The notes beneath the pieces were generated by a model, which had not been told where the DNA came from, did not search any database, and worked only from the letters and a program-made list of their open reading frames with translations. From the NCBI GenBank assembly GCA_031256435.1, contig JAIRQO010000039.1, forward strand, positions 30,167 to 94,166: a stretch of 64,000 nucleotides of DNA. Direction: 5' to 3'. The translations under genes and the position numbers were made by a program. The stretch is from Cellulomonadaceae bacterium. GTDB taxonomy: Bacteria > Actinomycetota > Actinomycetes > Actinomycetales > Cellulomonadaceae. This document shows positions 1 to 18,574 of the stretch, in pieces (positions within the stretch are counted from its first letter, which is position 1; each line of letters begins with the position of its first letter).

Positions 1-2
1 AA

Positions 3-254
3 GAGCTCTGGGAACAATCCGATCCCTTAACCGGGCCTCACGTTGATGGAGGGAATCGTCCGAAAGGTAGAGACCTCAAAGTTCTGAAACTCCTCGCCCG
101 AGGGAAAACCGATGAGGAAGTTGCCCGCCACCTAGGCATAGCCCCCCGCACCGTCCGCAGGGAGATCGACCGTTTGGAAGAAAGGACCGGAGCGCGATCA
201 CGATTGGAACTGGGGGTCCTTGCAGAACGGTACGGCTGGCTGAATCGCGTATAG
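3..254 (+). CDS. LuxR-type helix-turn-helix transcriptional regulator, C-terminal fragment (5' truncated by window edge)
   Basis: Open frame from window start translates ...LKVLKLLARGKTDEEVARHLGIAPRTVRREIDRLEERTGARSRLELGVLAERYGWLNRV*; resembles the C-terminus of the 14349-15320 regulator. Not in ORF track because the start codon is outside the window. Confidence 0.8.
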   Translation, partial: ELWEQSDPLTGPHVDGGNRPKGRDLKVLKLLARGKTDEEVARHLGIAPRTVRREIDRLEERTGARSRLELGVLAERYGWLNRV

Positions 255-382: not shown

Positions 383-772
383 ATGACAAGGAAAACACGC
401 ACTGCCACTATTCTCATCGCTGGCGCATTGGCCGTTGGCCTCACGGCTGCACCAGCATCCGCTCTGTGGAGCGATTGCCCATCGGGATATGCCTGTGTGT
501 GGACATCCACCAGTTATCCTGGCAGCCCTAACGCAAAAACAGCGAGCTTGTCAAACCTCGCTGATGTGAGTAATCGGGGAAATTCGATTGTGAACAATGG
601 AAAGACCTCGGTAGCAAGATACTATGACTTGGCTGGATGTAGTACCGGTTCCTACATTGTGATGAACAATCCGGCCCGTGGTGGGCAAAGCCGTGATCCC
701 TTACTTTCCAACGGGACTGACGCAACAACGGCGAACTGGGCCAACAAGATCTCGTGCGTGAAGTTCTCCTAG
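383..772 (+). CDS. Secreted small protein resembling peptidase inhibitor family I36 (SMPI-like)
   Basis: Sec signal peptide (MTRKTRTATILIAGALAVGLTAAPASA) then CPSGYACVWTSTSYPG...RYYDLAGC...; pattern of the I36 family. Confidence 0.65.
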   Translation: MTRKTRTATILIAGALAVGLTAAPASALWSDCPSGYACVWTSTSYPGSPNAKTASLSNLADVSNRGNSIVNNGKTSVARYYDLAGCSTGSYIVMNNPARGGQSRDPLLSNGTDATTANWANKISCVKFS

Positions 773-788
773 CGGTGAGAACGGAATC

Positions 789-1673
789 ATGACTGGTTCG
801 CGTGCCTGGGCACGCGTTGGAATGCTCCTGGCGCTGTGCATTACCGCGTCAGGATGTGGTGGAAGCACTGTGACCACCCCGCTGACGCCAGCCGAAGTCG
901 CTGAGCGGTACGGGTACAATACCGCCACGTCAACCATGACTCCGGCATATGCATTAGTGCCCGAATATCGTAACCCGCTTGACGGCTACGCCCGCGATCT
1001 CCTGGCGCGGGAGTGTTTGCAGGGTGTAGTTGACTACCAAGTTGTGCGCCCCGTTCCTGGTGACACGGAACTCGAAGAGTTCCGGACGGGTCAGGCGATT
1101 TTCAATGAGGGTGTGGCTCTGCGATTCGGTTACCCAATATTCCGCGCGCCCGCCACGAACGGTCTCGTTGTCGATGAATCGGTCACAATGACTGAGGATA
1201 TCCTCACTGCAATGAAGGACTGTGGGAAGGCTGCCGACAAACGTCTCGGTCTCATTCCGGACAACATCCCGTTCCTCATTGAATCCGCAGGATGGGAGGC
1301 GGCTGCCACCGATCCATTGGTGATGAGTGCAGCCAGCGCATGGAAGGCGTGTATGGCTCCGCTTGGCATAGCGGACTTGCCCGAAGTACCTGATCTGATG
1401 CCACCACCTTCCATGTTTCCTCGCTGGGCCGTTGACGAAGACGGGAATTACCAGGGCTACCTTGATCTCGCTCTGACAGACAAGGAGCGGGATGTTGCCG
1501 TTGCGGATGCACGCTGCCGAGGTGAGGCACACTACGACGAGGTGAGGTTCAAAGCCCGCGTAGTAGGTGAACTCCAAGCGATAGCTGCTGATCCCGAAGG
1601 ATTCGAAGCAGCACGTACGGAGTTCGCTGATTACTTCCAGGGCATCTCCGAGGTCATTTCAGCATTAGGTTAA
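789..1673 (+). CDS. Putative secreted lipoprotein, unknown function
   Basis: Lipobox-like LCITASGCGG; 17 bp downstream of the I36-like gene. Confidence 0.65.
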   Translation: MTGSRAWARVGMLLALCITASGCGGSTVTTPLTPAEVAERYGYNTATSTMTPAYALVPEYRNPLDGYARDLLARECLQGVVDYQVVRPVPGDTELEEFRTGQAIFNEGVALRFGYPIFRAPATNGLVVDESVTMTEDILTAMKDCGKAADKRLGLIPDNIPFLIESAGWEAAATDPLVMSAASAWKACMAPLGIADLPEVPDLMPPPSMFPRWAVDEDGNYQGYLDLALTDKERDVAVADARCRGEAHYDEVRFKARVVGELQAIAADPEGFEAARTEFADYFQGISEVISALG

Positions 1674-1716
1674 CGCCTGCTGGCTGCTATTCATCATCCA
1701 CAAAGGAGGCTAAGCG

Positions 1717-2874
1717 ATGAAAAGGATGACACTCGGTGTGGCCTCATTGTTGATCCTAGCCGCAGTTGCGTGGCTAGTGGCATCGCGAATGGAATCACCA
1801 GAGCAGGTATCTGCGCATGCCGAGGCCCCCGTCGCGGCGCCAATTACGGCTACCGTGATTGAAGGGTACCTGTATGGCAGCATGACGCTTTCGGCGATCG
1901 CCTCACCGGAGACCACCCAAAACATCACCGCTCCCAGTGAGATGGGCGGTGTTGTCACGGCACGGGTTGCACGGCGGGGGCAGGACGTTGGTTCCGGTGA
2001 TGTCATCCTCCGCGTCAATGGCCGTCCCGTTTTCACCCTCGCAGGAGCGTTCCCCATGTACCGGGATATCATGCCTAACGATTCCGGTGATGACGTGGCG
2101 GAAGTGCAGAAGGCACTCACCGATGCTGGACTCTATGAAGGGCCTGTGGATGGCGAGTTTGGAGAGGTAACCCAACAGGCATTCGTAGCAATGTATAACC
2201 GTGCCGGTTACAGGCCCCCGCGAGCACCAGAGGCACAACCACCAAGCCAGGACAATCTCGACGGTGAACAGAATGAACGTGAAAATGGGCGGGTAACCCG
2301 CCAGGAACCGAAGGACACAACCGGTGGCCCCATGATCCTTCGTCAAGAGGTGCTCTTTGTCCCGTCCCTTCCCGCCACTATCTCGTCTATTGCCGATGTC
2401 GGGAGCACCGTGACTTCTGACATGCATTTGCTCACATTCGCAACGTCGAACACCGTGCTGGAGGCCGTCATTCCGGTTGAGTCGCTCGGTCCCCTGACTG
2501 AAGGCGCCATGGGGTCTTTGAAGGACGACGACGGGAGCGAGGAAGAAGTCAGCCTCGAGTCAATAAACTCTGACGGCCAGGATGCAACACTGCGTTTCCC
2601 GGCCAATGAGCACACGTTGACTCAAGGAAACCCCTACGTCCTGACTTTGACCAACCCCGCGAACGAGCCTGCGCAGAGACTCCTGGTGCCAACCACTTCA
2701 GTGACAACGCGCGGTGGACGGTCAGTAGTGTTTGTGGGACAAGGGCTTTCATTTCATGAAGTAGAGGTGACGATCTCAGGGAGTGTTGGAGGAGTGGTGG
2801 CGATATCCCCTGCGAGGCCTGAGGAACTTGCACCTGGTTTAGCCGTTTTGATAGGTGATCACAGTGGGCACTGA
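1717..2874 (+). CDS. Peptidoglycan-binding domain-containing efflux/secretion adaptor (HlyD/MFP-like)
   Basis: N-terminal signal/TM; DDVAEVQKALTDAGLYEGPVDGEFGEVTQQAFVAMYNRAGY is a PG_binding_1 motif; adjacent to ABC transporter. Confidence 0.75.
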   Translation: MKRMTLGVASLLILAAVAWLVASRMESPEQVSAHAEAPVAAPITATVIEGYLYGSMTLSAIASPETTQNITAPSEMGGVVTARVARRGQDVGSGDVILRVNGRPVFTLAGAFPMYRDIMPNDSGDDVAEVQKALTDAGLYEGPVDGEFGEVTQQAFVAMYNRAGYRPPRAPEAQPPSQDNLDGEQNERENGRVTRQEPKDTTGGPMILRQEVLFVPSLPATISSIADVGSTVTSDMHLLTFATSNTVLEAVIPVESLGPLTEGAMGSLKDDDGSEEEVSLESINSDGQDATLRFPANEHTLTQGNPYVLTLTNPANEPAQRLLVPTTSVTTRGGRSVVFVGQGLSFHEVEVTISGSVGGVVAISPARPEELAPGLAVLIGDHSGH

Positions 2875-4810
2875 CACAGAAGGACCCGTTCTGCCGGTGT
2901 TGCACACTCCACCTCTCGTTGAACTCTGTGAGGTTTCTCGGTCCTATAAGGACACCTTTGCGCTGACCGATGTTAGCCTCACGATTCGTCCAGGGGAGTC
3001 CGTGGCGGTTGTGGGACGCTCAGGGTCAGGAAAGAGCACCCTTCTTAACATCCTTGGCCTTCTGGACGTCCCAAGCAGTGGAACGGTACGAATCGCGGGC
3101 TCGGAGATCGTCGAGGACGATGAAAAGACACGGGTCCACATGCGTGCTGACTACCTAGGATTCATTTTCCAGCGTTCACATTTGATCGGCGGACTCACCG
3201 TTGCGGAGAACGTGGAATTAGGGTTGCAGTATTCGAGAAGTCATCCGGACAATCACGCTGCTGTCAGAGCGCGCGTCATGCAGGCTCTCAGTGATGTAGA
3301 CCTTGTGCATCGCGCCCAGGCAGATGTCACCACGCTTTCCGGCGGAGAAATGCAACGGGCAGCTATTGCGAGAACACTGGTGCGTGATACACCATTGTGG
3401 TTAGCGGACGAGCCCACAGGTAATCTTGACTCCGCACAATCGCAGGAAATTATGACCCTCCTGCTGGAACGCGCACAGCAAAACAGTGCGAGCCTGGTAG
3501 TGGTGACTCATGAACCCGAAATCGCCGCCCAATGCAGCAGGCAGGTGATGCTCGCCGACGGACGAGTAGTCTCTGACGAGCGCAAGATATCTCCGGTCAT
3601 GGATGCCGCCACGTGGGCAAGCCCTGCCTGTTCCAATGTTCCCCCAGTGGGTGTGATACGAACTTGGTGGACGGCCTGGGTTCGTCTGACGAGGTTCATT
3701 TCCCAAGGTCTGCGCGCGCAACGTCAGCGAACCTGGGCTGGTGTGCTGGCATGCACCTTCGCCGTAGCGCTCACTGTCACCGCTATGGGACTGTCACAAA
3801 GCGCATCGAGCCAAGTCTCAACAATCTTCGATGCTCGACGCGCATCACAAGTTTCGGCCACCTTGACACGTGATTCCGGGGAACCCCGCTGGGGGCTCAA
3901 CGCGTCAGCGGTTCGAGAGTATGCCGGAGTCCGAGCCGTCGAATTCTGGAGCCAATGGCAGGCGGTATCTATACGGAATGGAGAAGCTAGTGAAACCACA
4001 GCAGAGCTAAACGCCATGGAGATGACTCCCGGACCGGGTTCGGATGCGCATATCACCTGGTTGAATCCAGATCGACGAGTCCTTGGTGAAGGTGACGTTG
4101 TGTTAGGCCAATCTCTCGCCGCTCGTCTTGCACTCCCCTCACTGTCCACCTCTCCCGAGGTGATCGTCCACGGTACCCGGTTGCGTGTGGCCGGGATACT
4201 CACCGAAGCCAGGCCAGGCACTGCAGTGGGGGCGGCTTTCGTGACACCAGAAAGCGTCGAGAATCTCCCGTCGCCGCGGACCGTCATGATATATGCCAAG
4301 ACCAACCCCGGAGCCGCACGACAACTTGCCGATCACCTGGATTCCCTGGCAAATCCGTTCGGCGAGTACCGGATCATGGTAGATCCCGTATTACAAGCGG
4401 ACGCATTCCGTGGACAACTCCAGGAATCGGTCTCAGTATCCCTCACCGTTCTTGCAGTTGTAGCAGCGCTTGCGGGACTCGTGATCGTGGTGATGGTCAC
4501 GGTCCTCGGTGTCACGAGGCGGATCCCCGAGTTTGGACTCAGGCGGGCACTGGGTTCCTCCCGCTTCGGCGTGGCGGGACTCGTCATGGGTGAGTGCATT
4601 GTCCAAGGAACAATAGGTTCATCACTCGGCACGGTAGTGGGTTTCATCGCCATCATGACGGTCACCGCTTTTGCTCGCTGGCAACCGGTCTTTGATACGC
4701 GTTTACTCGCCATACCTATGATAGCCAGTGCGGTATTTGGGTTGGGTGCTGCCGTAGTTCCTGCAATCCTGGCTGGACGGATCCAACCCGCTGATGCCGT
4801 TCGAGGATAG
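2855..4810 (+). CDS. MacB-like ABC transporter, fused ATPase and FtsX-type permease
   Basis: Walker A GRSGSGKST, signature LSGGEMQR, Walker B LWLADEPTGNLD; C-terminal FtsX-like TM region. Overlaps upstream CDS by 20 bp. Confidence 0.88.
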   Translation: MITVGTDTEGPVLPVLHTPPLVELCEVSRSYKDTFALTDVSLTIRPGESVAVVGRSGSGKSTLLNILGLLDVPSSGTVRIAGSEIVEDDEKTRVHMRADYLGFIFQRSHLIGGLTVAENVELGLQYSRSHPDNHAAVRARVMQALSDVDLVHRAQADVTTLSGGEMQRAAIARTLVRDTPLWLADEPTGNLDSAQSQEIMTLLLERAQQNSASLVVVTHEPEIAAQCSRQVMLADGRVVSDERKISPVMDAATWASPACSNVPPVGVIRTWWTAWVRLTRFISQGLRAQRQRTWAGVLACTFAVALTVTAMGLSQSASSQVSTIFDARRASQVSATLTRDSGEPRWGLNASAVREYAGVRAVEFWSQWQAVSIRNGEASETTAELNAMEMTPGPGSDAHITWLNPDRRVLGEGDVVLGQSLAARLALPSLSTSPEVIVHGTRLRVAGILTEARPGTAVGAAFVTPESVENLPSPRTVMIYAKTNPGAARQLADHLDSLANPFGEYRIMVDPVLQADAFRGQLQESVSVSLTVLAVVAALAGLVIVVMVTVLGVTRRIPEFGLRRALGSSRFGVAGLVMGECIVQGTIGSSLGTVVGFIAIMTVTAFARWQPVFDTRLLAIPMIASAVFGLGAAVVPAILAGRIQPADAVRG

Positions 4811-10054: not shown

Positions 10055-10137
10055 GTAATACCAGGGCAAGGGCCCGGTTGGGTGGCTCCACCCCGTAAAG
10101 TTTCCACGCATCGCTCGGAATACTTTACGGGGGCCCC

Positions 10138-10180
10138 GGAGTAGAGCCAGGCGCACCAGCGCCGACGGTCGAAACCCCCA
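10138..10180 (+). repeat. Palindromic repeat type A (GTAGAGCCAGGCGCACCAGCGCCGACGGTCGAAACC)
   Basis: Near-identical to 10251-10287 and 13475-13512; GGCGC-acca-GCGCC hairpin core. Confidence 0.8.
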
Positions 10181-10239
10181 CCGGACCCATTGCCGTCCCC
10201 GCAATGTTTCCACGCATCGCTTGGAATACTTCACGAGGG

Positions 10240-10449
10240 CCCGGTTGGGTGGTTGAGCCAGGCGCACCAGCGCCGACGGTCGAAACCCCCACCGGGCCCT
10301 TTGCCGTCCCCGGCCAACTCACCCGCAATTCCGAAGCACAACGGCGATTCCTGCGTGCATTAGTACATCCTTGCTCGGTTAGTGCCGCAGTCCATCGTCG
10401 AATATTGCACTGATCGACGAAACTTGCACTAACCCACCAGCCAGACACC
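10240..10449 (+). repeat. Long direct repeat copy 1 flanking the 10591-13413 gene
   Basis: Shares type A repeat, GGGCCCTTTGCCGTCCCCG, CCGCAATTCCGAAGCACAACGGCG..CCTGCGTGC and a 66-bp identical end (10384-10449) with 13465-13732. Confidence 0.85.
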
Positions 10450-10590
10450 CAGACCCAGACGCGCCAGCGCCTGGCTCAACCGCCCGTGGGGGGAGGAATA
10501 CCTGCTCCGCCAAATACGCTTTGACGTTGCAGAGCGCTGCGAGTAAACGTTTACTAAAATGGTGACAAATCCGGACACAAGGGAGTCTCC

Positions 10591-13413
10591 ATGGATACGC
10601 GCGCTCACGTCAGCCACCCTCGCTCTGGGATGAGGTGTTCTAGTCACCACCCGAGTTCCCTGGATGAGAGTGCTCTGTACCTAGCCACTCAACACCCAGC
10701 CACGCAGCACCCAAGCGCACGACGCCACGTTCGCGTGGGCGTCATGGCGGGGATAGTGGCTACGGTAGTATTATTGGGCGGCCTGTTTGCCACCATGGCA
10801 ACCACGTCTGCGTGGGCTGGAACCACCCCTGCCAACGGCATAGCCGTTCAACCCCTCCCGGCAGGCGCTCTACGTCAGGTACCTGCATCGCTGCCCAGCC
10901 CTGCACCCACGCCATCTACGTGGCACTTCCGGGTTGATCGCGAGGACGGCAGTTCCACAGGTGGACTTCTCAACTCAGGCACCTACGCCAACTTCACCGA
11001 CATCTGGGATACCTTGCAAGCCGGAGATAAGGTCACCCTCCTTAGAGACATCAACTTCACCGGACCCATCTCCCTGACCAACCAGGGCGCCATCACCCTC
11101 AACACCAACGGGTACACGTTAAACCTCACGTCTAGCGGTGACACGCTCACCGTTTCCGAGAACTCGCAACTTACCGTAACGGGAACGGGAGCGGTGAATG
11201 TTTCCACTACGGGCACTGGGGCGGGCGTGGCTGCGGTCAGAGTCAGATCTCGCGGCGTGGTGACCGGCATTCACAATGTGACTGCACCAGATGGCGCATC
11301 GGGCGCTTGGGCCCTTCACGCTGAGGGCGCCCAGTCCGGCGTGAGCATCAACGGCAATGTGACCTCGGGATACTCCGTACACGCCAACACGGGAGCAACG
11401 GTGACGGTGGCCGGTTCCACCAGTACGTACTTTGGGCTGGACTCCAACGCTGGCACCATCATGGCCGGAGCGGTCACCGCCACCGTGCGTGGTCTGTATG
11501 CGGTAGCCGGTGCCACCGTGACCGCAGGACAGGTCACGCTTGGCTCACAATCCCAGGACGGGGAGGCGGGCCAGTTCTATGTATCCAACTCCCAGGTGAC
11601 AGCCCAGGCCATCACCGTGACCGGTGCCTGTGATGTCCTCGTGCATGACAAGGGGTCCCTCACGGTCACCGGCGCCATCACCGGAGCCCGCATCATAGAC
11701 GTAGCTCCCAAGGCAGTACTGAAAGCCGGGTCCATCTCTGGCGTGCATGAGCTTATTGTTGAGGATGCCACGGTCAATGTTCAGGGAAATGTGGCCTTTG
11801 CCCAGAGCGGCGCGTCGAGTGCTTCCAACCCAGCGCCTTGCGATCATAGCGCTACCAACCCATTGCTGTGCGCTGAAAGTTCCGCCAAGGTGTCCATTGG
11901 GGGTTCGGTCTCCTTCCCTCGCGCTGGGGACGTAACTGCCAACACTGGGGCAAGCCTTGCCGTGGGCAAAGATCTCTCCTGGCAGGTAGGCACTCTGGAT
12001 GTGTCAGACCCCGGGACCACCCTCTCCATCAAGGGTGTCTACAGGTCCACCGGAACGTCCTCGGGTAGCCACAGTTCCGTGATATACGTTGACCAGGGCG
12101 CCGTAGTAACACTTGGCTCCGCCTCAATTGTCCATGGCGTGATGGCTGCCTCCCGTGCCGCCCAGATCACCGTCAACGCGAACGCTGCCTTCACCGGCAG
12201 TGGAACCCTGCTGGCTCAGCAGGGTTCAGTGATGGTTCAGGGAAATGTAGATCTGGCCTCGTGCAAGGCTGATAGCGAGTCTGCGCCCATGGTATGCGCC
12301 GTTGCCATGAACGGGCACATCACCGTGAACGGGAATTTCACGGCACGCCAATCAGGACTCCTCTGGGCGTTTGACCCTACTCCACTATTTAGTGCCAGCG
12401 CCATCATGAACAGTCAACAGATTCCCCAGGGCGGGACCATCACCGTCTCCGGCCACACTTCATTGCCGGGTACCACGTGGTTAGGACTTGGACTCAACAC
12501 GGCTGGGGTGCCCATGTTGAAGCCAGCCACCGTCAAGTCAGTGACGCAGATGGCTTCCAGCACTACCAAGGCTGGCTACCTCACCTACGCCCAGGGCGGC
12601 TCCTCCATCTGGATTCGCCCCTTCCCGGTCACCGTGAACACACCGCGCATCCCTACCGCTATTTCCGTGGGACAGAAAGTGTCTGTGGCGTCCGGCACCT
12701 GGCCGGTGGGGACCAAACTCACCTATCAATGGTTGCGCGGCACCACCCCAATAGGCACCAACGCTGCCAGTTACACCCCCGTGGCCGCCGATGTAGGAAA
12801 GGTGCTCAGTGTCAAGGTCTCTGCGGTCACTCCCCCTCACCACGTGGCAGTCCAACCCCGTGTCTCCAACACAGTTACCGTGGCAAAAAGTCCGAGCCCC
12901 AGCGCACCCGTGGCGCCAGCAGTGACCGCCAAGACATCCACGTCTGTCACGCTGAAAGCTAACGCTCGCCATGAGTTTTCCAAGGATGGGGTCACGTGGC
13001 AAAGGTCTGGTACCTTCACTCGTTTAGCGCCGGGAACACGCTACTCGTTCCACCAACGTGTGAAGGAAACGGCATCCACCCACGCCTCTGCTAAGAGCAC
13101 CAAACGGACGGTTACCACCACACCTGGAACGTTCTCCCAGGGTAGGGTTTCTCTGTCCGGCACGGCAGGAGTAGGGAAGAAACTCACCGCCCAGGTGGCA
13201 ACCACCACCCGACCTTCGGCCACCCGGTATCGCTATCAGTGGTACCGCTCTGGCAAGAGCGGCGCAGTGAAAACAGTGGTGACTACAGCAAAGAAGAGTT
13301 ACTACACTCTGGTCAAGGCTGACGTGGGAAAGAAGATCACCGTCAAGGTGACCGCCATAAGGACTGGTTACACCTCCAAGACTTTCACAAAAACAACGGC
13401 CCGAATCTCCTAG
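10591..13413 (+). CDS. Large secreted protein: beta-helix-like repeats plus C-terminal bacterial Ig-like repeats
   Basis: Signal/TM segment (VRVGVMAGIVATVVLLGGLFATMATTSAWA); repetitive V-T-V-x-G pattern; LTYQWLRGTTPIGTNAASYTPVAADVGKVLSVKVSAV and a related YRYQWYRSG... repeat. Confidence 0.75.
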   Translation: MDTRAHVSHPRSGMRCSSHHPSSLDESALYLATQHPATQHPSARRHVRVGVMAGIVATVVLLGGLFATMATTSAWAGTTPANGIAVQPLPAGALRQVPASLPSPAPTPSTWHFRVDREDGSSTGGLLNSGTYANFTDIWDTLQAGDKVTLLRDINFTGPISLTNQGAITLNTNGYTLNLTSSGDTLTVSENSQLTVTGTGAVNVSTTGTGAGVAAVRVRSRGVVTGIHNVTAPDGASGAWALHAEGAQSGVSINGNVTSGYSVHANTGATVTVAGSTSTYFGLDSNAGTIMAGAVTATVRGLYAVAGATVTAGQVTLGSQSQDGEAGQFYVSNSQVTAQAITVTGACDVLVHDKGSLTVTGAITGARIIDVAPKAVLKAGSISGVHELIVEDATVNVQGNVAFAQSGASSASNPAPCDHSATNPLLCAESSAKVSIGGSVSFPRAGDVTANTGASLAVGKDLSWQVGTLDVSDPGTTLSIKGVYRSTGTSSGSHSSVIYVDQGAVVTLGSASIVHGVMAASRAAQITVNANAAFTGSGTLLAQQGSVMVQGNVDLASCKADSESAPMVCAVAMNGHITVNGNFTARQSGLLWAFDPTPLFSASAIMNSQQIPQGGTITVSGHTSLPGTTWLGLGLNTAGVPMLKPATVKSVTQMASSTTKAGYLTYAQGGSSIWIRPFPVTVNTPRIPTAISVGQKVSVASGTWPVGTKLTYQWLRGTTPIGTNAASYTPVAADVGKVLSVKVSAVTPPHHVAVQPRVSNTVTVAKSPSPSAPVAPAVTAKTSTSVTLKANARHEFSKDGVTWQRSGTFTRLAPGTRYSFHQRVKETASTHASAKSTKRTVTTTPGTFSQGRVSLSGTAGVGKKLTAQVATTTRPSATRYRYQWYRSGKSGAVKTVVTTAKKSYYTLVKADVGKKITVKVTAIRTGYTSKTFTKTTARIS

Positions 13414-13464
13414 GCGTGGCGCAATCGCCCTCCAAGTACCCCTCGCAACCGGTGCATTGCCGGA

Positions 13465-13732
13465 CCCGGTTGGGCGGTTGAGTCAGGCGCACCAGCGCCG
13501 ACGGTCGAAACCCCCACCGGGCCCTTTGCCGTCCCCGCGATGCCCGCAACTCCGAAGCACAACGGCGATTCCTGCGCCCCACCAGCCCACAAACCAGCAA
13601 CCCGCCCGCAATTCCGAAGCACAACGGCGCTCCCTGCGTGCGGCAGTACATCCTTGCTCGGTTAGGGCCGCAGTCCATCGTCGAATATTGCACTGATCGA
13701 CGAAACTTGCACTAACCCACCAGCCAGACACC
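13465..13732 (+). repeat. Long direct repeat copy 2 flanking the 10591-13413 gene
   Basis: 66-bp identical terminal segment (13667-13732 = 10384-10449); includes an internal duplication of CCCGCAAYTCCGAAGCACAACGGCG. Confidence 0.85.
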
Positions 13733-13746
13733 GAGGCTCACGGGGC

Positions 13747-15320: not shown

Positions 15321-15342
15321 CCCTCCACCCTACCCACGGCGC

Positions 15343-15373
15343 GTGGCCACTTGCGGCCACGGCCTCAGGTGGC
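15343..15373 (+). promoter_or_regulatory. Putative operator block 3 between regulator and 43-aa peptide gene
   Basis: GTGGCCACTTGCGGCCACGGCCTCAGGTGGCCG; shares TGGCCAC[CT]TGCGGCCA[CT]G with block 2. Confidence 0.5.
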
Positions 15374-15444
15374 CGCCGAAATCTCTGGACATTGGCCGTG
15401 ACGTGGGTCACAGTTATTGAGCGGTTCGAACAAAGGAGATCACC

Positions 15445-15576
15445 GTGCGCAAAGCCATCGCCCTCATCCTCGCAGCCCTCGCCATCATTGCCGGAGGTGC
15501 GGCAGCATCACCACACACCACCCCACCCCATCACACCGTGGTAGAAGCCTGCCACTGCAGCCACTGCTGGAACTAG
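15445..15576 (+). CDS. 43-aa secreted His/Cys-rich prepeptide, unknown function
   Basis: GTG start with AAAGGAGAT at 15432-15440; MRKAIALILAALAIIAGGAAASPHTTPPHHTVVEACHCSHCWN*; clear Sec-type signal peptide; below the size cutoff of the supplied ORF track. Confidence 0.7.
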   Translation: MRKAIALILAALAIIAGGAAASPHTTPPHHTVVEACHCSHCWN

Positions 15577-17909: not shown

Positions 17910-18155
17910 ATGAGCCAGATGACCCTCAAGAAATCAGTCACCATTCCGGAAGATGTGTTCCGCGAAACCCAAAGCTTCAATCCGAACTTGTCCGAGTACA
18001 CCACCAGGGCGCTGCGTAATCAGATTGAGCAGGACAAACTTGCCACCCTCGTCGAATATCACGAAAGCAAATACGGCCCCGTTTCTGACGATGTGATGGC
18101 GCGCGTGATTGCTGATCGTCATGCGGCTGACCGAATGGTTGGCTTCGTTCGGTGA
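17910..18155 (+). CDS. Antitoxin of a VapBC-type module
   Basis: Small protein overlapping a PIN-domain toxin by 4 bp; tandem TGGTAGGAT just upstream. Confidence 0.7.
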   Translation: MSQMTLKKSVTIPEDVFRETQSFNPNLSEYTTRALRNQIEQDKLATLVEYHESKYGPVSDDVMARVIADRHAADRMVGFVR

Positions 18156-18574
18156 CGCGACGCAGAGTCCCGCGAGACCATGCGGCTCGCGTGGTGGTTT
18201 TTGATTGCCAGGCGCTCGCAAGGGCAGTGACGGGCGACGAGTACCTCCGGGGCGTGATCCGGTTGGCAAAGCAGGAGAACTCTCCCGTTGTGGTCTCGGT
18301 AGCCACCATGGTGGAGGTGATCCACCCCAGGATTGACACTCGCGAGTTACGGTACGTACTCTCGCTCATCAGGCTGGTTGACGTGACAGCCGATATTGCC
18401 CGGAGTGCGAGTGAGTTGCTCAGCGCCGCAGGTCTACACGGCCACACGCATGCGCTCGATTCCTTTGTTTGTGCCACCGCCTTGGCGTCACAGGGTCACC
18501 CGACGATTTACACCTCGGATCTAGGTGATGTGCAGCGCCTCGTGGGCAACCGCGCCTCCGTGATCCGGGTGTAA
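18152..18574 (+). CDS. PIN-domain toxin (VapC-like)
   Basis: VVFDCQALARAV, conserved acidic positions (...VVEVIHP...HALDSFVCATAL...IYTSDLGDVQRL). Confidence 0.8.
   Translation: MTRRRVPRDHAARVVVFDCQALARAVTGDEYLRGVIRLAKQENSPVVVSVATMVEVIHPRIDTRELRYVLSLIRLVDVTADIARSASELLSAAGLHGHTHALDSFVCATALASQGHPTIYTSDLGDVQRLVGNRASVIRV

Follow-up and report, generated by a model that had tools for sequence, protein, structure and literature searches.

A putative peptide pheromone gene divergent from a TrmB-LuxR regulator in a Cellulomonadaceae genome

A 64-kb window of the genome of a Cellulomonadaceae bacterium (GCA_031256435.1, contig JAIRQO010000039.1, positions 30,167 to 94,166; 57-65% GC), by which we mean the whole stretch of DNA that was analysed, contains a very short gene for a putative secreted peptide and, divergent from it, a gene for a transcription regulator; these two genes make up the candidate signaling system considered here. 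The open reading frame (ORF) of the peptide, at 15445-15576 on the plus strand, begins with GTG, is preceded by the Shine-Dalgarno stretch AAAGGAGAT (15433-15441, placed by eye) and translates to the 43-residue product VRKAIALILAALAIIAGGAAASPHTTPPHHTVVEACHCSHCWN, in which a predicted signal sequence (approximately residues 1-21) includes a hydrophobic core and leads to a cleavage-like site (AAA followed by SP) and the 22-residue tail SPHTTPPHHTVVEACHCSHCWN, with three Cys and five His. These features are exactly those described in the first-pass annotation, which had also placed the gene at the head of a co-directional cluster and opposite a LuxR/TrmB-like regulator. The product has no match in Pfam or NCBIfam, in agreement with the earlier statement that no family could be recognized; that statement is now superseded in one respect, because copies linked to homologous regulators and sharing a Cys-x-x-Cys (CxxC) motif define a peptide family.

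The regulator P0002 (14349-15320, minus strand; 323 residues) is the proposed receptor. Its start codon lies 124 bp from that of the peptide gene, and the divergent promoter region common to both genes occupies 15321-15444. In Pfam, P0002 gives a weak GerE match and none to TrmB. The 11-row regulator profile, compared with solved structures, aligns with TrmBL2 (5box) across residues 10-250 (E 6e-4), and its residues ~255-320 match many GerE DNA-binding domains; the architecture therefore appears to consist of an N-terminal winged helix, a TrmB-like middle region and a C-terminal LuxR-type helix-turn-helix, in keeping with the LuxR/TrmB-like label of the first-pass annotation. No viral homologue was found.

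On the other side of the promoter region, the peptide gene is followed after 16 bp by P0003 (15593-16390, plus strand; 265 residues) and, 9 bp past the latter, by P0004 (16400-17743, plus strand; 447 residues), and the three genes are likely to form an operon led by the peptide. P0003 is putatively secreted and is a likely effector; it weakly matches C92/YiiX, a family of permuted papain-like proteins (E 2e-5, 25.2 bits against a Pfam cut-off of 27), and contains the motifs HGHSGIF and NCSQVVW. It has no relative within the genus and none among solved structures. P0004 is a putative lipoprotein (LSGC lipobox) with no informative family. Within the promoter region, a weak candidate operator, GTGAC-N4-GTCAC (15398-15411), lies between a -35 element (TTGGCC, 15392-15397) and a -10 element (TATTGA, 15415-15420) that are weak and were fitted by hand, the promoter scan having made no call; a second candidate is an imperfect inverted repeat with 14-nt arms (86%) at 15345-15374. 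In a second genus with this gene arrangement, g21 (see below), the candidate operator ACATG-N4-CATGT lies inside a block that is nearly unchanged in three species.

The host genome (2.5 Mb) encodes 11 regulators of this family, namely P0002 and ten paralogs that are 27-38% identical to it across nearly the full length. In the phylogenetic tree, all 11 form one clade (support 99/96), which implies an expansion inside the host lineage; the best match to P0002 elsewhere in the genus is only 34% identical over 206 residues. A tiny Sec-like peptide adjoins six of the 11 paralogs, five times in divergent orientation and once (C27) on the regulator's own strand, directly past its 3' end. The C-termini of these peptides are VEACHCSHCWN in the window, VMACMNCFR (C17), PPPEIQCIHCKPQPK (C59), EVVCYTCRPIPT (C18), IPQCWNCPGIQ (C5) and QILCVNCPDRN (C27), so that the common part amounts to little more than a C-terminal CxxC and a tail of 2-6 residues; in an alignment of 13 members, the two Cys alone are invariant. 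Association with a CxxC peptide is clustered on the regulator tree (seven changes, against a mean of 10.8 for shuffled labels, with none of 500 shufflings as low). The C59 locus contains an extra copy (QCMHCKPQPK) that results from a tandem duplication of the promoter, the peptide gene and the start of a small secreted protein gene (L036:1-1650), which the end of the contig interrupts; CIHC in one of the two peptides corresponds to CMHC in the other, a difference that is like that between pherotype variants.

When the whole genome was searched with the peptide-family profile, seven sites were recovered (E<5e-9), all beside regulator paralogs, and the next best had an E value of 0.32; six of the seven belong to the profile, so that their recovery is largely by construction and the information lies in the lack of any further sites. 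An ORF filter that required a Shine-Dalgarno stretch, a hydrophobic core, a length of 26-75 residues and CxxC within the last 16 residues was applied to 684 kb of regulator-centred DNA and returned 13 matches, of which 11 are located no more than 450 bp from, and divergent to, a homologous regulator (ten distinct peptides, two loci overlapping), and the other two are also cassette-associated. Because all matches belong to cassettes and the background is nil, the 43-codon ORF of the window is, judged by its sequence context, a real gene, above chance expectation.

Peptides of the same type extend beyond the host genome. Within the genus, four are encoded divergently to homologous regulators in three genomes, G008 (two loci), G007 and G004, and end in TCADCWEYV, SCVHCWNPNVSELPAR, ACHYCPPRQ and QCIDCWQPQWAPLVS; some of the homologous regulators in the genus lack the N-terminal winged helix. 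The genus g21 shows the same divergent layout in G199 (MCVACWPTSK), G200 (MCVTCWPTSK) and G201 (QCVACWPTAD), with the peptides 158-183 bp from the beginning of the regulator match. In a family-wide search of 222 genomes, the g21 peptide gave strong matches (E 8e-7 or better) only in these three genomes, which are also those with close regulator orthologues. A comparison of G199 with G200 shows changes at many codons in the initial two thirds of the peptide and, in the tail CV[TA]CWPTSK, one replacement and two synonymous changes. At L167/L053 (G004:C13), a regulator of the CxxC clade is accompanied by a divergent Sec peptide that is free of Cys and carries a Trp motif, TIGGYWRPRPNFEVITEVDYP; this peptide is a possible link to the Trp-type peptides described next. 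Four further TrmB-LuxR homologues in the family (L173, L174, L175, L177) adjoin genes for very large secreted proteins (1,180-1,370 residues), subtilase-like by eye.

More distant regulator homologues, on Streptomyces plasmids and in a genus of the same class with large genomes (g123), are accompanied by small Sec peptides that are free of CxxC and carry a short C-terminal Trp motif, with endings such as GLDDLGWQ, SQDNTWGP, PNDMIWG, TTDSLWD, RSGFSWG, APDLGWQ, PLDPIWG and DVTWGP. Some small Sec precursors near regulator homologues contain internal short repeats (DTSWGQ, TTAWE, DLPWT, DPGWQ, IFDIG; loci L212:1057+, L243:2371-, L255:2679-, L274:2260-, L209:2696+, strands as given), each of these units occurring twice within a single precursor (IFDIG in G665). 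In two other precursors, at L182:5609-5935 (Streptomyces sp. NBC_01708 plasmid NZ_CP109189.1) and L249:1154-1435 (G725), the unit GAGWD is repeated five to six times; here the regulator is 2-3 kb away, with one other gene between. The GAGWD precursors adjoin, in the same order in both genomes, genes for a Cys-rich protein (annotated as a GNAT acetyltransferase in L182) and an ArsR-type regulator, and could possibly be multi-copy pheromone precursors linked to an arsenic-type island. A search of genome contigs with a 5-row regulator profile retrieved only Ornithinimicrobium, an Actinomycetales metagenome-assembled genome and Crossiella, none with a peptide.

The reading that we favor, and consider probable, is that a peptide pheromone is made from the product of the 43-codon gene and that the divergent regulator is its cytoplasmic receptor, controlling its own operon. 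This reading draws on the recurrence of the pairing with the regulator, on the restriction of the common part of the peptides to the CxxC core and on the repetition of short units in the precursors of the relatives. The precursor would be exported via the Sec pathway, after which signal peptidase and extracellular trimming would free a short C-terminal peptide around CxxC (part of ACHCSHCWN in this case), the two cysteines of which would probably close a small disulfide loop. At high concentration, the peptide would re-enter the cell through an oligopeptide permease (the genome encodes two SBP_bac_5 oligopeptide-binding proteins) and bind the TrmB-like sensor region of the regulator, the LuxR-type helix-turn-helix of which would then switch the common promoter, presumably towards the production of more pheromone along with the lipoprotein and the secreted hydrolase made from the same transcript. 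At least six such regulator-peptide pairs are present in the genome, presumably each with a private specificity. With confidence just short of even, we further propose that these pairs belong to a previously undescribed, widespread superfamily of peptide signaling systems in Actinomycetota, in which cytoplasmic TrmB-LuxR receptors ('LuxR solos') have as partners very short peptides cut from precursors that leave the cell by the Sec pathway, of a CxxC class in the host genus and g21 and of a Trp class, often with repeated units, in Streptomyces and g123.

Several observations weigh against these proposals. Five of the 11 paralogs lack a detectable peptide, and a search with relaxed filters beside L033, L035, L036b, L037 and L038 yielded none; an operator word common to all paralogs was likewise sought and not found. 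Several members of the peptide family have no canonical signal-peptidase site and might be anchored peptides, and proteins of the SBP_bac_5 family are ubiquitous. The AlphaFold model of P0002, built from three alignment rows, is poor (mean predicted local distance difference test score 55): in this low-confidence model the helical domains at both ends are confident and the mixed alpha/beta middle is poorly resolved. The connection between the CxxC and Trp classes is drawn from regulator homology and layout, not from peptide similarity; an unselected scan of the Streptomyces type also yields junk ORFs, and some of the Trp and GAGWD precursors are 1-3 kb from the regulator.

The genes that may be under control of such systems differ among cassettes. 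The first letters of the window (1-248, plus strand) are the 3'-terminal part of a second paralog of the regulator (G000:C17:29446-30411), 38% identical to P0002; the CxxC peptide of this paralog (VMACMNCFR) lies just outside the window (C17:29172-29306, minus strand). The paralog is followed on the plus strand, over 383-4810, by genes for an I36-like secreted protein (383-772), a lipoprotein (789-1673), a membrane-fusion-like protein (1717-2874) and a MacB-like ABC exporter (2864-4810). The sister cassettes likewise run into genes for small secreted proteins, for lipoproteins that fall into two homologous groups and for MacB-like exporters, and the row in G007 consists of the peptide, a lipoprotein, a small secreted protein, an adaptor-like protein and ABC genes. 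A sister-cassette ABC exporter scores 189 bits against TIGR03608 (the lactococcin-972 group), below the cut-off of 255 bits, and one small secreted protein weakly matches an 'ocin' family (NF053514, E 0.0067). It is plausible, from this gene content, that the system makes the release of secreted effectors, which may be bacteriocin-like, dependent on cell density.

The first-pass annotation had left the choice between a pheromone, a bacteriocin and a metal-binding peptide, and the comparison of cassettes now favors the first. A role of the peptide itself as a small bacteriocin or other antimicrobial effector, made under the control of the divergent regulator, appears unlikely to us. The product is a small, putatively secreted peptide with Cys, and the small secreted proteins, the lipoproteins, the exporters of the MacB and lactococcin-972 type and the 'ocin' match of the sister cassettes all point in this direction; however, they fit a bacteriocin function of the genes downstream in those cassettes better than one of the 43-residue peptide. 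The peptides retain the CxxC core alone while the downstream effectors vary, the pairs in G199-G201 have no recognizable adjacent exporter, immunity-like or effector gene (although gene prediction there is poor), and no enzyme that modifies ribosomally synthesized and post-translationally modified peptides (RiPPs) was recognized among the window genes scanned with Pfam and NCBIfam. Repeated units of 5-6 residues, moreover, look like the precursor form of a short excised signal and have no easy explanation in an antimicrobial or a metal-binding protein; they are the strongest single argument for a pheromone, although one that comes from relatives of the regulator and not from the CxxC class itself.

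Binding of Zn or Cu, or thiol redox activity at the cell surface, with the regulator sensing the respective stress, would account for the CHCSHC core and the five His of the window copy. Those His are peculiar to this copy, other members having few or none (for example, IQCIHCKPQPK and TQCVACWPTAD), the regulator alignment contains no invariant Cys, the downstream genes are not metal-related and the Streptomyces-type counterparts lack the Cys tail, all of which makes this explanation very improbable. Somewhat less remote, but still improbable, is the reading that the ORF is translated into a micropeptide which stays anchored in the membrane and, with no signal released, acts from inside the cell on the regulator or on a neighbor protein: some members show no clear cleavage site, and the linkage to the regulator would fit any direct partner, whereas the repeated short units of the relatives and the Pro-rich linkers ahead of the CxxC tail suggest processing outside the cell. 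A chance ORF, a purely metal-binding peptide and a RiPP were also considered for the 43-codon gene and set low.

Two other features of the window are noted for completeness. Directly past the operon, at 17910-18574, a CcdA-like antitoxin and a PIN-domain toxin form a VapBC-like pair (weak Pfam matches), and small toxin-antitoxin-like pairs are also seen near the regulator paralogs L035 and L038, from reading their sequences. The gene for a 940-residue secreted protein with AIR9/SCAB Ig-like matches (10591-13413) lies between near-identical intergenic repeats at 10091-10457 and 13462-13740 (143 nt at 92%, 76 nt at 96%).

Cell-cell signaling in actinobacteria is thought to rely mainly on small molecules made by enzymes, and many LuxR-type regulators have no known ligand. 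If the pheromone interpretation is correct, a gene-encoded partner peptide would give a large group of regulators a directly testable ligand and would establish a class of peptide pheromones with a new type of receptor; synthetic inducers for silent operons of secreted effectors or bacteriocins could follow, and the multi-copy paralogous pairs are a natural set for the study of receptor-peptide specificity. A literature search found no description of such a regulator-peptide system among the open-licence papers searched, and the window peptide is most likely, as far as can be judged from sequence, a pheromone of a kind not previously described in Actinobacteria, the signals of which are typically small molecules made by enzymes (2023 survey, PMC10075063).

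Among known systems, the regulators appear to resemble archaeal TrmB and TrmBL2 in the N-terminal winged helix and the middle region but differ from these in the extra C-terminal GerE domain, the peptide partner and, in some members within the genus, the lack of the winged helix. With actinobacterial LuxR solos, P0002 shares the C-terminal GerE domain and the lack of a LuxI nearby, and it is set apart by its encoded partner; no autoinducer-binding domain for acyl-homoserine lactones was found in Pfam and no LuxI-like protein among the neighboring genes scanned. Nor was an AgrB-like protease or a kinase, as in Agr systems, present among the scanned neighbors (regulator, C92-like protein, lipoprotein, CcdA/PIN). 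The sister cassettes are similar to lactococcin-972-type clusters in combining a small secreted protein, a lipoprotein and a TIGR03608-related ABC exporter; however, the small proteins match no lactococcin family, the exporter is below the cut-off, and the window operon has the C92-like hydrolase instead, with neither a lactococcin 972 precursor nor an exporter. The closest parallel is the RRNPP family of Bacillota (Rap-Phr, PlcR-PapR, NprR-NprX, Rgg-SHP), in which, too, a tiny Sec-type propeptide gene adjoins the gene for a cytoplasmic receptor, the signal resides at the C-terminus and there are often several paralogous pairs per genome. The differences are the TrmB-like/LuxR helix-turn-helix receptor, the divergent layout, the CxxC or Trp cores and the actinobacterial host, and since no tetratricopeptide domain is recognized in P0002 (its only matches in Pfam and NCBIfam are weak ones, to helix-turn-helix/GerE families), the system would work like RRNPP but is not a member of that family. 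The Trp-class precursors with their repeated units, for their part, resemble the alpha-factor precursors of yeast.
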